A DNA stretch of 64,000 nucleotides, from the NCBI RefSeq assembly GCF_000011005.1, contig NC_013665.1, positions 2,023,501-2,087,500 on the forward strand. Direction: 5' to 3'. Source of the stretch: Methanocella paludicola SANAE. GTDB lineage: Archaea > Halobacteriota > Methanocellia > Methanocellales > Methanocellaceae. The notes beneath the pieces are model-generated. The model saw nothing but the letters and a program-made list of their open reading frames with translations. It had not been told where the DNA came from and ran no database searches. Positions 9,490 through 30,167 of this stretch are shown here, piece by piece; positions within the stretch are counted from its first letter, which is position 1; the number at the start of each line of letters is the position of its first letter. A program made the position numbers and the translations under genes.

Positions 9490-9589
9490 TGGGCCCGCTG
9501 CGATTTGAACGCAGGGCCTCTCGGTTATCAGCCGAGCGCTTGTCGCTGCCTTTTGACGGGCAGTTCCGACCTGGCTAAGCTACGGGCCC
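9490..9589 (-). tRNA. tRNA-Ile (GAU) with a putative 25-nt intron in the D arm
   Basis: Acceptor stem GGGCCCG pairs with CGGGCCC and the discriminator is A; CCA is not encoded. The anticodon arm is CTCGG-CTGATAA-CCGAG (GAU) and the T arm CTGCG-TTCAAAT-CGCAG. The D arm is 25 bases too long. Removing 9540-9564 restores a D arm with stem GCTT/GAGC and a 10-base loop, giving a 75-nt mature tRNA. Its D region then matches the intronless CAU tRNA at 30030 at all but one position. Confidence 0.9.
9540..9564 (-). other. Putative tRNA intron at a non-canonical D-arm site
   Basis: The 25 bases fold into CTGCC/GGCAG (5 bp, 8-base loop). Next to it lies a 4-bp helix GTCG/CGAC, flanked by a 3-base bulge GAA on the 5' side and AAG on the 3' side. 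This is the bulge-helix-bulge layout cut by archaeal tRNA splicing endonuclease; cutting GA^A and AA^G gives the predicted mature tRNA. The outer helix is weak, so the motif is relaxed. The boundary can slide by one base without changing the product. Confidence 0.75.
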
Positions 9590-9654
9590 AACATCTTCTG
9601 TAAAAGTCATTACTACTACATAAAAGTTATGCACAAAGCCTCAGACATAATGGA

Positions 9655-9689: not shown

Positions 9690-10622
9690 ATGGCGTGCGA
9701 CAAGTGCGGCAAGGAAGCCGTCGTTCTTCAGAAGTATTCCGGCATGCATCTCTGCGCTCACCACGAGATCGAGGACGTGGAGCGTAAGATCAAGAAGCGC
9801 ATGCGGCAGGACAGGATGGTCGTACCGGGCGACCACGTGGCCGTCGCGATGAGCGGAGGCAAGGATAGCGCTGTCACTCTGTCGATCCTTTTTGAGACCT
9901 TCAGCATGAGGCCGGATATCAAGTTCACCGCCATCACCATCGACGAGGGCATCGACGGCTACCGTAATTTTTCTATACCCAGGGTGAAGGAGCTTTGCGA
10001 TAAGCTGGGCGTGCCGCATATTGTTGTTTCTTTTCAGGAGGAGGTGGGCTGCACGCTGGACGAGATGCTCACCCACGAGCGAAAGGAGGCGTCCTGTACC
10101 TATTGCGGCGTCTTCCGGCGCACGCTGCTGAATACGACAGCCCGCAACATTGGCGCCAACAAGCTCGCCACCGGCCATAATTTAGACGACGACGCCCAGA
10201 CCGTGCTCCTTAACGTTATGAATGGGGATACGGAGAGACTCGCTCGTTTGAGGCCGTCCAGGCCCCAGGAAGGCCTCATACCCCGTATTAAACCCCTTAT
10301 GGACGTGCCTGAGAGGGAAGTCGCGCTGTACGCGTTCCTGAAGGGCCTGCCATTTCACATGGGCGAGTGCCCCTATGCGCGTGAATCACTAAGGGGCGAG
10401 ATCAAGGATATGCTTAATGATTTCGAGTCCCGGCACCCCGGGACGAAGTATTCTATCATGCGCGGGTTCGATAATATGGTCCCCTGCCTTAAGGAGAAAT
10501 ACCCTCAGGTGCCTTTAACAAAATGCGAGATCTGCGGGGAGCCGGGTATTAAGGGTGTCTGCCAGGGGTGCAAGCTTAAGGAGCGTATCAAGATTATCGG
10601 CAAGCCTCCCTTAAAAGATTAG
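9690..10622 (+). CDS. tRNA 2-thiolation enzyme, TtuA/NcsA (TIGR00269) family
   Basis: PP-loop ATPase that activates a tRNA uridine by adenylation and replaces its oxygen with sulfur; TtuA acts on position 54 and NcsA/Ctu1 on wobble U34. The PP-loop SGGKDS is at residues 55-60. An N-terminal zinc site uses C3, C6, C22 and H25, and a C-terminal zinc ribbon has CEIC and CQGC. C136, C139 and C227 match the three cysteines that hold the 4Fe-4S cluster in TtuA. Which uridine is modified cannot be told from sequence. It lies next to the tRNA-Ile gene. Confidence 0.9.
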   Translation: MACDKCGKEAVVLQKYSGMHLCAHHEIEDVERKIKKRMRQDRMVVPGDHVAVAMSGGKDSAVTLSILFETFSMRPDIKFTAITIDEGIDGYRNFSIPRVKELCDKLGVPHIVVSFQEEVGCTLDEMLTHERKEASCTYCGVFRRTLLNTTARNIGANKLATGHNLDDDAQTVLLNVMNGDTERLARLRPSRPQEGLIPRIKPLMDVPEREVALYAFLKGLPFHMGECPYARESLRGEIKDMLNDFESRHPGTKYSIMRGFDNMVPCLKEKYPQVPLTKCEICGEPGIKGVCQGCKLKERIKIIGKPPLKD

Positions 10623-10678
10623 ATTTTTATCTATATTTTGGACTTGATAGCACCGACATTTAATTCCCATTGGGTTTG

Positions 10679-10997
10679 AGGCACTAAGGTTACGGAGGCA
10701 CTATTCTCACCACAATGGCACGGTGTTCACGAAGGCCCACTAAGATTTCTTTTTAAAAGTAAGTGACAGAGGTCACAAAGCCCGGTTCATTAACGTTAGG
10801 GCACTAAGGATACAATGGCACAGCGGAATGAACAAGAGCACTTTTTGCCATCGTGTCATTGTCACCTTCGTGCCCTAAAAACCCAAAAAGCCTGCTCTGT
10901 GGCCTTAGTGACTCACATTTAAAAGAAAGCTTTGTGAAACTCGGTGCGCTTCGTGCCATTGTGGTGAAAATAGTGGCTCTGTATGCTTAGTGACTTA
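10679..10997. repeat. Long degenerate inverted repeat, intergenic (copy 1)
   Basis: Two arms of about 130-150 bases are imperfect reverse complements. The left arm has CACTAAGGTTACGGAGGCAC and then CTCACCACAATGGCAC. The reverse complement of the right arm has CACTAAGCATACAGAGCCAC and then TTCACCACAATGGCAC. No coding content. It fills the space from the thiolase stop to the signal-peptide protein. It belongs with the repeats at 30971 and 59880, which use the same short words (ACAGAG, GAGGCAC, CTTCGTGCC). Confidence 0.75.
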
Positions 10998-11054
10998 AAT
11001 AATGACTTTATTGCTCAGGGAAAGTTTTTATTTCCGCCTTCAGATGCATTATTA

Positions 11055-11699
11055 ATGAACGCCTTGCTTAGTAACCTATCGAGGACGCTCACACTTCTAG
11101 CACTTTTTGCGATCATATCAGTAACAATGCCCCCGGCGATGGCCCACAACCCAATCTTCGGCCAGGACAACCACGACCTCTCCACTGCCGTTCGGATACC
11201 AGACGCGAACATATCCTATGCGATGTATGGCTACCTCGACGCGCCTGGCGAAGCGCAGTTCTACTACATGGACATATCGTCCCCCGTAAGCCTCATGACC
11301 CAGATGAACGTGCCAAAGAACGATGTATACGCTAACTTCAGGCCATCCTATGCTATCATCGGGCCGGGCATCACGACACACGACCCTATACCGTTCGAAG
11401 TCCCGGCAGGCAACGGATCATTATTAATAAACGCTTCCAGGCAGGAGCCGAGGAGCGAGTTCTACGAGCCATTCTCGGGCATCACATACAACAACAGCGC
11501 TAAAACATATACTGACATCACCGTTCCCGGCCGGTACTACATCGCCATCTTCGACGGATCACACAAAAAAGGAGATTATTTCCTGGCTACCGGAGAGCTC
11601 GAATCATTCTCGATATGGGACCTGCCCTCCGTGATCTGGAAGGTCATCCAGCTAAGGCTCGGGTGGCTCGATCACAGCAAAGAGGCCGCAAGCACCTGA
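11055..11699 (+). CDS. Secreted or surface protein of unknown function
   Basis: A 214-residue protein using the ATG at 11055. It gives an N-terminal signal sequence (MNALLSNLSRTLTLL followed by a hydrophobic stretch ending near PAMAHN). The longer frame from 10983 would run into the inverted repeat and is rejected. The mature part is rich in Tyr, Pro and Asn-x-Ser/Thr sites and ends in an amphipathic region (IWKVIQLRLGWLDH). It resembles extracytoplasmic beta-sandwich proteins; no family is recognised. Confidence 0.7.
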   Translation: MNALLSNLSRTLTLLALFAIISVTMPPAMAHNPIFGQDNHDLSTAVRIPDANISYAMYGYLDAPGEAQFYYMDISSPVSLMTQMNVPKNDVYANFRPSYAIIGPGITTHDPIPFEVPAGNGSLLINASRQEPRSEFYEPFSGITYNNSAKTYTDITVPGRYYIAIFDGSHKKGDYFLATGELESFSIWDLPSVIWKVIQLRLGWLDHSKEAAST

Positions 11700-11709
11700 A
11701 ACACAGTTA

Positions 11710-12126
11710 CTATTTTCTGTGAGCGATGGAACGCTGCGAGATGGCGTTCTGCAGCTTAAATTTTATAGACCCGTCGTTCGGCGAAAGCCTCAAAGACTCC
11801 TGGTACTCGCGAATAGCCTCGTCGAACATGCGCCGGCGCTCGTAAATATCGCCCATCAGCAAGTGAGTTTCAGCTCTTTCCGGGTCTACCCTGGCGGACT
11901 GGTCAAGCTCGACCATCGCGTCGTCAAGCTGGCCCTGGTGATAGAGCTCATAGCCCTTCTTATAATGAGGGTCGGCGCCGCGGGTGGCGCATTTACCGGG
12001 CACGAGGTCGATGGATATGCGGTTATCGTGAGCGCATTCGCTGAACTCGGGGTTACAATCCGGGTGCTGGGGGATGACGATCTCCGGCGGGTTCTCGCAG
12101 ACGTCTTTCTCGTCTTTTTCGGCCAT
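11710..12126 (-). CDS. TPR-repeat protein
   Basis: A 138-residue protein. The first 45 residues are Cys-containing and polar (ENPPEIVIPQHPDCNPEFSEC), possibly a small metal site. About two and a half tetratricopeptide repeats follow, with patterns such as GYELYHQGQLDDAMVELDQS and HLLMGDIYERRRMFDEAIRE. Such repeats bind peptides or partner proteins; the partner is unknown. Separated from rtcB by about 55 bases and transcribed in the same direction, so it may be distal in that transcription unit. Confidence 0.8.
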   Translation of the reverse strand: MAEKDEKDVCENPPEIVIPQHPDCNPEFSECAHDNRISIDLVPGKCATRGADPHYKKGYELYHQGQLDDAMVELDQSARVDPERAETHLLMGDIYERRRMFDEAIREYQESLRLSPNDGSIKFKLQNAISQRSIAHRK

Positions 12127-12181
12127 AAGAAAAAAATCAGCGGTCGTCTTTAAATCATTTTTCTCCGCCTAAAACAGCCGC

Positions 12182-13621
12182 CTATCCCTTCGCTACCGCG
12201 ATGGGCACGAGCCGGGCGACCTTTTTGGAAATGCCCAGCCCGTCCACGACGGCGATGACTTCGTCGATCTCCTTGTAGACTTCGGGGGCTTCTTCGGCGA
12301 TGGCTGCATCCTTTGGCGCCTTCACGACGATGCCTCGCTCCAGCAGTTGCCGCTTTACCTCATTGCCGCGGATGTCCTTCAGGGCTGCGCTGCGGCTCAT
12401 GACTCGTCCTGCCCCATGGCAGGTGCTACCGAAGGTGAGCTCCATGCCCCTCTGCGTGCCGGCGAGCACATAAGAGGCGCTGCCCATGCTGCCCGGGATG
12501 ATCACTGGCTGGCCTACGTCCCTGTAGGCGACAGGTACCTCGGAGCGGCCGGGGGCGAAAGCCCGGGTGGCGCCCTTGCGGTGTACGCACAGCGCCTTCT
12601 TGACGCCGTCCACCTCGTGCTCCTCGAACTTGGCCACATTATGGGCGACATCGTAAACTAAATCCATCCTGACGTCCCGCTTATAGTATTTACTGAACGC
12701 TTCCCGCACCCAGTGCGATATGATCTGGCGGTTCGCCCACGCGTAGTTGGCGCCCGCGGCCATGGCGGCGAAATAGTCCTTCGCCTCGGGCGAGGAAAGC
12801 GGTGCGCAGGCTAGCTGCCGGTCATAGAGCTTTATGCCGTATTTCCTGGAGGCCTGCTCCATCGTTTTTACATAATCGGTACAGATCTGGTGGCCGGCGC
12901 CGCGGGAGCCGCAGTGGATCATGACGGTGACCTGGCCCTCTTTCAGGCCGAACGCCTTCGCCACGGCCTCGTCGTAGATCTTTTCGACCTTCTGGATCTC
13001 TAAAAAGTGATTGCCGCTGCCAAGAGTGCCCAGCTGGGGCCTGCCCCGGTCCCTGGCCTTCTTAGATACTTTCGCGGGGTCGGCGCCCTTCATCTCTCCG
13101 TTCTCTTCGCAGTGCTCCAGGTCCGCCTTCACGCCATAGCCGTTCTCCACGGCCCACCGGGCCCCGGTACGGAAGACTTCGGCGAGCTGGGCATCGTTCA
13201 CGCGGAACTTCGACTCCGAGCCCAGGCCCGAGGGGACCGCCTCGTATAAAGCGTTGATAAGGTCGACCTTATGGGGCTTGACATCGTCGGCCATTAATTC
13301 CGAGCGCAGGAGGCGCACGCCGCAGTTGATGTCGAAGCCGACACCGCCGGGGCTGATCACGCCCGTCTCCGTGTCGAAGGCTGCCACGCCGCCGATGGGG
13401 AAGCCGTAGCCGATGTGCACGTCGGGCATGGCCATCGAGTACCTCTGGATGCCCGGCAGCGTCGCCACGTTCGCCGTCTGGTCGATGGCGCCGCTCTCCA
13501 GGCCCTCGATCAGCCGGTCCGATAAAAAGATGTGCCCTGGCACGTTCATGCCGGGCTTGTAATCAGTAGGGATCTCCCAGACGTCCTCGGAGATCTTCTT
13601 TAGCTTATCCGCAGCTACCAT
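12182..13621 (-). CDS. rtcB: RNA-splicing ligase RtcB
   Basis: GTP- and Mn-dependent ligase that joins 2',3'-cyclic phosphate and 5'-OH ends, the ligase for tRNA exons in archaea. At 479 residues it is full length and has no intein. Metal ligands and active-site residues are visible: GFDINC (D97, C100), the His in GSGNHFLEIQ, the His in MIHCGSRG, and the guanylated His region in STCHGAGRVMSRS. It follows the archease gene by 14 bases, so the two form an operon. The intron-containing tRNA-Ile of this window is a plausible substrate. Confidence 0.97.
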   Translation of the reverse strand: MVAADKLKKISEDVWEIPTDYKPGMNVPGHIFLSDRLIEGLESGAIDQTANVATLPGIQRYSMAMPDVHIGYGFPIGGVAAFDTETGVISPGGVGFDINCGVRLLRSELMADDVKPHKVDLINALYEAVPSGLGSESKFRVNDAQLAEVFRTGARWAVENGYGVKADLEHCEENGEMKGADPAKVSKKARDRGRPQLGTLGSGNHFLEIQKVEKIYDEAVAKAFGLKEGQVTVMIHCGSRGAGHQICTDYVKTMEQASRKYGIKLYDRQLACAPLSSPEAKDYFAAMAAGANYAWANRQIISHWVREAFSKYYKRDVRMDLVYDVAHNVAKFEEHEVDGVKKALCVHRKGATRAFAPGRSEVPVAYRDVGQPVIIPGSMGSASYVLAGTQRGMELTFGSTCHGAGRVMSRSAALKDIRGNEVKRQLLERGIVVKAPKDAAIAEEAPEVYKEIDEVIAVVDGLGISKKVARLVPIAVAKG

Positions 13622-13635
13622 GCACTATCATCCGG

Positions 13636-14061
13636 TTAAATGTCCAATAGCACTTGGGCCTCATATATGTTATCCTTTTTTTCAAAGCGCAGGTCGTGGA
13701 ATGTCACTGCTTTGATGTGCATGGAGATGTCGGGGTGGCGAGAGACAGATTCTCCCCAAACCCTTGCCTCGAGAGTATAGCCGCCTTCATGCGGAGTCAC
13801 GTGGACCTGGAACCGGGAATAGACGATATGGTCGACTTCGAAGATGTATAACAGCTCGGACAGCCAATCATAAAGCAGCGTATCGAGCGCGTCGCCCGAT
13901 AGCTCGACGCTCTTCTCCACCTCAGGCTTTACTTTAGCGGGGTCGATGACCAGGCCGGCCATAGCGCGGGCGGCATTAACGAAAGCCTCGTCTACGGTGT
14001 GCCCGTAGGCGATAAACTCGGCGTCCGCCGTATGCTCTAGATATTGAAAATCCATGATCAA
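13636..14061 (-). CDS. Archease, activator of RtcB
   Basis: A 141-residue archease that speeds RtcB guanylation and allows multiple turnover. The typical start YLEHTADAEF carries the conserved His and Asp, and LLYDWLSELLYIFEVD and the C-terminal YEAQVLLDI are characteristic. Length and sequence match the archaeal family. It is immediately upstream of rtcB on the same strand. The start may be either of two nearby ATGs (MIMDF or MDF). Confidence 0.96.
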   Translation of the reverse strand: MIMDFQYLEHTADAEFIAYGHTVDEAFVNAARAMAGLVIDPAKVKPEVEKSVELSGDALDTLLYDWLSELLYIFEVDHIVYSRFQVHVTPHEGGYTLEARVWGESVSRHPDISMHIKAVTFHDLRFEKKDNIYEAQVLLDI

Positions 14062-30029: not shown

Positions 30030-30104
30030 GGGGGTGTAGCTTAGCCAGGTCAGAGCGTCCGGCTCATAACCGGAAGGCCATGGGTTCGAATCCCTTTACC
30101 CCCA
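30030..30104 (+). tRNA. tRNA with anticodon CAU (elongator Met or Ile2)
   Basis: Acceptor GGGGGTG pairs with TACCCCC (one G-U), discriminator A, no encoded CCA. The anticodon arm is TCCGG-CTCATAA-CCGGA. It lacks the three G-C pairs of an initiator anticodon stem, so it is not initiator Met. Its D arm and the stretch around CGGCTxATAACCG closely match the tRNA-Ile(GAU) at 9490, which favours tRNA-Ile2, whose C34 is changed to agmatidine in archaea. Elongator Met cannot be excluded. Confidence 0.93.
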
Positions 30105-30167
30105 CTTAAAAACACGAAAACCCGGCATAAGTTCAAATACTAATGCAGCAAACGATTAAACACCAAC

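Follow-up and report, generated by a model that had tools for sequence, protein, structure and literature searches.

The only tRNA-Ile(GAU) gene of the rice-paddy methanogen Methanocella paludicola, found in the 64,000-nt stretch of DNA analyzed here (the window), is interrupted in its D arm by 25 nucleotides that are best read as a protein-spliced archaeal tRNA intron, which EndA would cut out and whose flanking exons RtcB would join; from the sequence comparisons set out below, we put the probability of this reading at about 0.94. The intron's motif is irregular, its outer helix being almost absent, a feature that had gone unmentioned in an earlier annotation of the window (the sequence-only reading). 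On the minus strand, the gene reads GGGCCCG UA GCUU AGCCAGGUCG GA, followed by ACUGCCCGUCAAAAGGCAGCGACAA and then by GC G CUCGG CUGAUAA CCGAG AGGCC CUGCG UUCAAAU CGCAG CGGGCCC A, the insert falling in the 3' strand of the D-stem, at mature positions 23/24 by the usual numbering. The whole gene scores 60.4 bits end to end with the Rfam tRNA model, with a long D-loop insertion, and ARAGORN makes no call on the intact gene at 9589-9490. Deletion of 9540-9564 in silico is sufficient for ARAGORN to call tRNA-Ile(gat), in agreement with the proposal of the sequence-only reading that removal of the insert yields a normal tRNA-Ile with the stem GCUU/GAGC. The same program calls tRNA-Ile(gat) for 12 of the 12 intron-bearing genes given to it in spliced form, and for 0 of 12 correctly when unspliced. 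Since this is the sole GAU isoleucine gene among the 48 tRNA hits of the genome (complete, one contig, 2,957,635 bases), it must be functional. The intron had been placed at exactly these coordinates beforehand, and it accounts for all the observations. The earlier comparison with the CAU tRNA, said to have the same D arm as the spliced tRNA-Ile, holds except at position 21 (A21 vs G21).

Table 1. Features of the tRNA-Ile(GAU) gene, its predicted splicing motif and related genes (window coordinates).
Feature	Position	Strand	Basis or remark
tRNA-Ile(GAU) gene	9589-9490	-	25-nt D-arm insert; M. paludicola
Exon 1, mature nt 1-25 (positions 1-23)	9565..9589	-	Rfam RF00005 match; junction surroundings identical to uninterrupted relatives
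Core helix, 5' strand GUCG (exon)	9567..9570	-	pairs with 9542-9545; covariation
5' bulge GA^A (predicted 5' splice site)	9564..9566	-	3-nt bulge in 13/13 genes
Putative D-arm intron, 25 nt, between positions 23 and 24	9540..9564	-	ARAGORN call after removal; same-junction introns in relatives
Inner helix, 5' strand CUGCC	9559..9563	-	pairs with 9546-9550; minimum-energy fold, covariation
Inner helix, 3' strand GGCAG	9546..9550	-	minimum-energy fold, covariation
Core helix, 3' strand CGAC (intron)	9542..9545	-	minimum-energy fold, covariation
3' bulge AA^G (predicted 3' splice site)	9539..9541	-	motif geometry across intron-bearing genes
Exon 2, mature nt 26-75	9490..9539	-	Rfam RF00005 match
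RtcB tRNA-splicing ligase	12182..13621	-	Pfam PF01139, E 3e-183; sole RtcB hit in genome; 2.6 kb from tRNA gene
Archease (RtcB activator)	13636..14061	-	Pfam PF01951, E 7e-42; apparently co-directional with RtcB
CAU tRNA, intronless, for comparison	30030..30105	+	D arm nearly that of tRNA-Ile(GAU)

The sequence-only reading described a 4-bp helix, bulges GAA and AAG, and an inner CTGCC/GGCAG hairpin, all of which are present, in a 3-4-3 geometry (GAA, GUCG/CGAC, AAG) extended by the 5-bp inner hairpin. When the 25 insert bases are shuffled, a 4-bp core is obtained in 2.5% of cases, and a core combined with an inner helix of at least 5 bp in 1.5e-5. In the minimum-energy fold of the unspliced gene, the core, the 5' bulge and the inner hairpin all form (z -3.0). 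As in bulge-helix-bulge introns, there are two 3-nt bulges and a 4-bp helix, and all four core pairs are found in 13 of 13 genes. Cutting after the second bulge base, a rule verified with the genome's own canonical eMet intron, places the junctions at GA^A and AA^G and so delimits an intron of 25 nt between positions 23 and 24. The exon sequence GUCG of the precursor would thus base-pair with CGAC close to the intron end, beside the intron hairpin, to form the bulge-helix-bulge; a single EndA would make both cuts, RtcB assisted by archease would ligate the exons, and the D-stem GCUU/GAGC could then form.

Comparison with other Methanocella tRNA-Ile genes, as the sequence-only reading had advised, revealed inserts at the same junction that differ in length and sequence. 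The intron is present at 23/24 in 4 of 4 Methanocellales genomes (25, 21, 26, and 22 nt), the 26-nt version being that of Methanocella sp. PtaU1.Bin125 (G002), which also gave the only match when contigs were scanned for the exact Methanocella motif. M. arvoryzae MRE50 (G001) has two tandem copies of the intron-bearing gene. A gapped pattern search over 394 Halobacteriota genomes, with further members contributed by a second BLAST query, showed the same junction to be interrupted by 17-34 nt in three further families, f2 (seven genomes), f12 (four), and f16 (four), which brings the total to 19 intron-bearing genomes, Methanocellales included; BLAST with the mature tRNA alone under-reports such introns because an interrupted gene matches only partly. 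Across three genera the exons remain intact with hardly any variation, and the insert retains its structure: the exon bases of the core vary (GUCG, GUUG, GUUU) and their intron partners vary along with them (CGAC, CAAU, GAAU). Among seven distinct rows, 49 of 49 cells are paired, with two-sided changes in five of the seven pairs. The covariation score is 0.735, vs 0.302 +/- 0.066 after shuffling and at most 0.22 with the partner slid; as the rows are related, shuffle counts are not probabilities and the slide is the fairer control. These comparisons indicate that the motif is kept by compensating changes while the sequence and length of the intron vary.

Uninterrupted versions of the gene also exist. 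In a genome of the sister family f7 (G009), the D arm is continuous and reads GGGCCCGTAGCTTAGTCTGGTTGGAGCGCACGGCTGATAACC; the f16 genome G058 has the same 42 bases (42/42) plus 17 nt inserted after ...GGTTGGA, and these identical flanks fix the junction at 23/24 without ambiguity. The gene is likewise uninterrupted in f36 genomes, where it is 97% identical to the spliced Methanocella tRNA. On the RpoB tree, whose deep branches are weak, four changes of the trait are required, and well-supported branches force at least three of them; the intron was therefore gained or lost more than once, either by an old gain with later losses or by repeated gain.

Both EndA and RtcB are encoded in the M. paludicola genome. 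The sole EndA gene found there, one ORF of about 365 aa, contains two repeats each of PF01974 and PF02778; its nearest solved relatives, 1r0v and 2gjw, are of the homodimeric type. Its C repeat has an intact catalytic triad (Y/H/K, in FRVY, PHS, and RK), while the Methanocellales chains have A or P instead of the triad histidine in their N repeat. We infer from these features a homodimer of a two-repeat chain (alpha'2) with its triad in the C repeat only. The specificity loop of EndA is credited with relaxed substrate recognition. The Crenarchaea-specific version of this loop, a lysine-bearing insert between FYG and LSLIES as in 3p1y, placed here from the difference between 3p1y and 2gjw, is found in 0 of 11 EndA chains from intron-bearing genomes, which puts these enzymes outside the broad-specificity class defined by it. 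EndA of intronless relatives looks alike at the loop site, and the plain homodimeric type is common to all intron-bearing lineages. In the window, genes for tRNA maturation are clustered at 9690-14061, namely a TtuA-like thiolase gene (9690-10622, plus strand), RtcB, and archease; the TtuA-like gene adjoins tRNA-Ile in G001 and G003 as well. The sequence upstream of tRNA-Ile(GAU) (window 9590-9640, minus strand), TAACTTTTATGTAGTAGTA, is nearly unchanged in other Methanocellales (L052, L055) and may contain the promoter; it is missing from the second of the tandem copies in G001.

What sets the D-arm introns apart is the distribution of their helices. Their outer helix has 1 bp (f1, f2) or 2 bp (f12, f16) and their inner helix at least 3 bp, and they do not conform to the strict hBHBh' motif, which has helices on both sides, the outer one included. 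By the same measure and in the same genomes, introns at 37/38 nearly always have an outer helix of 4-7 bp, which is long because the anticodon stem serves as outer helix, and an inner helix of often 0-3 bp. The tRNA-Tyr intron of M. paludicola is the mirror case, with 5 bp outside and 0 bp inside. A two-fold symmetric homodimer might recognize the D-arm motif as a mirrored Tyr intron, and would then tolerate the near lack of an outer helix on the side of the exons; such a symmetric EndA could cut the D-arm motif, since the tRNA-Tyr of the same genome must already be cut.

Other explanations of the extra bases were considered. They could be retained after maturation, as a hairpin that extends the D-loop above a D-stem GCUU/AAGC, a pairing that is possible in the unspliced Methanocella RNA and slightly more stable by calculation (-13.1 vs -11.6 kcal/mol), and that the Rfam model adopts when aligning the gene; in the Methanocella precursor, this pairing would hide the 3' bulge. 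The AAGC partner is, however, not kept in f2, f12, and f16, which have AUGC or GUGC; G19, on which the contact between D-loop and T-loop depends, would be taken up by the core helix; and the 3-4-3 geometry covaries. Relatives keeping the same bases in the mature tRNA, which the sequence-only reading had named as evidence against an intron, are not what the comparison returned, as the inserts vary from 17 to 34 nt and the sister family is insert-free with identical flanks. Retention is thus very improbable. A pseudogene, decayed or inactivated by the insertion, as the failure of ARAGORN to recognize it intact might suggest, is hardly credible given that the complete genome has no second GAU isoleucine copy, that the exons are conserved across the three genera, and that the insert keeps its structure.

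It is also conceivable that the intron is real but that its removal needs more than a single EndA, for instance a subunit or partner that escaped detection. According to reviews, homodimeric EndA does not cut relaxed motifs efficiently, unlike the heterotetrameric and epsilon-2 enzymes (PMC6379350; PMC12397907, the latter arguing from structure), and this published strictness, together with the 1-2 bp outer helix and the missing Crenarchaea-specific loop, speaks for an additional factor. Against it, only one EndA gene was found, homodimeric EndA is reported to cut bulge-helix-loop and minimal motifs (PMC8707768), and the plain homodimeric enzyme accompanies the intron in every lineage, making a further factor unlikely. 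On balance, we favor, with some reserve, the view that in four Halobacteriota families a loop-less homodimeric EndA routinely processes an essential tRNA with a D-arm intron that has virtually no outer helix.

Introns in the D arm are already known, and it is their distribution here and the mismatch with the enzyme model that deserve follow-up. The literature (PMC3218864, PMC4090602) bears out the sequence-only reading in that they are reported mainly from Crenarchaeota. Non-canonical introns of Crenarchaeota and Thaumarchaeota (D-arm sites such as 20/21, 22/23, 25/26; PMC4090602) are, like the present one, short, located outside 37/38, folded as a bulge-helix-bulge and removed by EndA (here predicted), whereas the Methanocella intron, at 23/24 of tRNA-Ile(GAU), is found in members of the Halobacteriota, alongside a homodimeric EndA devoid of the Crenarchaea-specific loop. 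The genome's own canonical introns at 37/38 (eMet, Tyr, Ser-GGA) share the 4-bp core, the 3-nt bulges and the cut rule, but have an outer helix of 5-7 bp, the anticodon stem, as opposed to 1 bp outside and 5 bp inside for the M. paludicola D-arm intron. Three thermophilic methanogens with non-canonical introns (PMC3218864) are also euryarchaeal in the old sense, with introns outside 37/38; Methanocella, in contrast, is mesophilic and belongs to Halobacteriota, and the EndA of Methanopyrus is heterotetrameric. Multiple-intron tRNAs are listed in Methanopyrus and Methanothermobacter (PMC4033280), and tRNAscan-SE 2.0 has a model that was trained partly on euryarchaeal non-canonical introns (PMC8450103). 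The 2011 genome paper of M. paludicola, which used SPLITSX, reports introns in four tRNA genes, and five in MRE50 (PMC3146512). Four intron-bearing tRNAs were also counted here (Ile, eMet, Tyr, and Ser(GGA)), and as the two counts agree, the D-arm intron was probably already annotated in 2011, without comment. A literature search of partial coverage found no paper describing it.

Several further observations concern other tRNA loci. The f16 genome G058 and the f12 genome G018 (loci L205-L238), both from Halobacteriota with small genomes, are unusually rich in tRNA introns: judged by length, about 20 of the 40 tRNA hits in G058 and 14 of the 37 in G018 could hold introns, mostly at 37/38, the comparison figure for Euryarchaeota being about 8% (PMC4090602). 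At L220, L222, L224, L236, and L238, introns are apparently located elsewhere or double, despite an EndA of the homodimeric type. In G009 and G027, long anticodon-arm introns of tRNA-Ile, tRNA-Ile2(CAU), and tRNA-Glu (L176, L191, L180, L190, L200-L204) contain common repeated modules, e.g., GTCCTACATTCGC...GTAGGAC (four copies in G009, one in G027) and AACCTTTTT/AAAAAGGTT hairpins, which looks like intron sequence spreading between tRNA genes. In M. paludicola (G000), the weak tRNA-like sequence L048 (G000:C1:2485690-2485764; 30.9 bits, broken T arm) is probably a pseudo-tRNA, and the 48 covariance-model hits include no tRNA-Trp(CCA), which a long intron may conceal.

In reviews, the tRNA introns of Euryarchaeota are said to be few and to occur singly and at 37/38, in keeping with a strict splicing enzyme. 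In the present case, an essential tRNA of cultivable methanogens appears to carry an irregular D-arm intron, at one junction in four families that have a loop-less EndA. If processing by this enzyme is confirmed, the rule that relaxed tRNA introns need a heterotetrameric or epsilon-2 enzyme would not hold for the helix on the exon side. The presence and absence of one intron between identical flanks provides material for a study of intron gain and loss, and the system would offer an easy way to test how much of the motif a homodimeric EndA needs, thereby making the model of enzyme-intron co-evolution testable.
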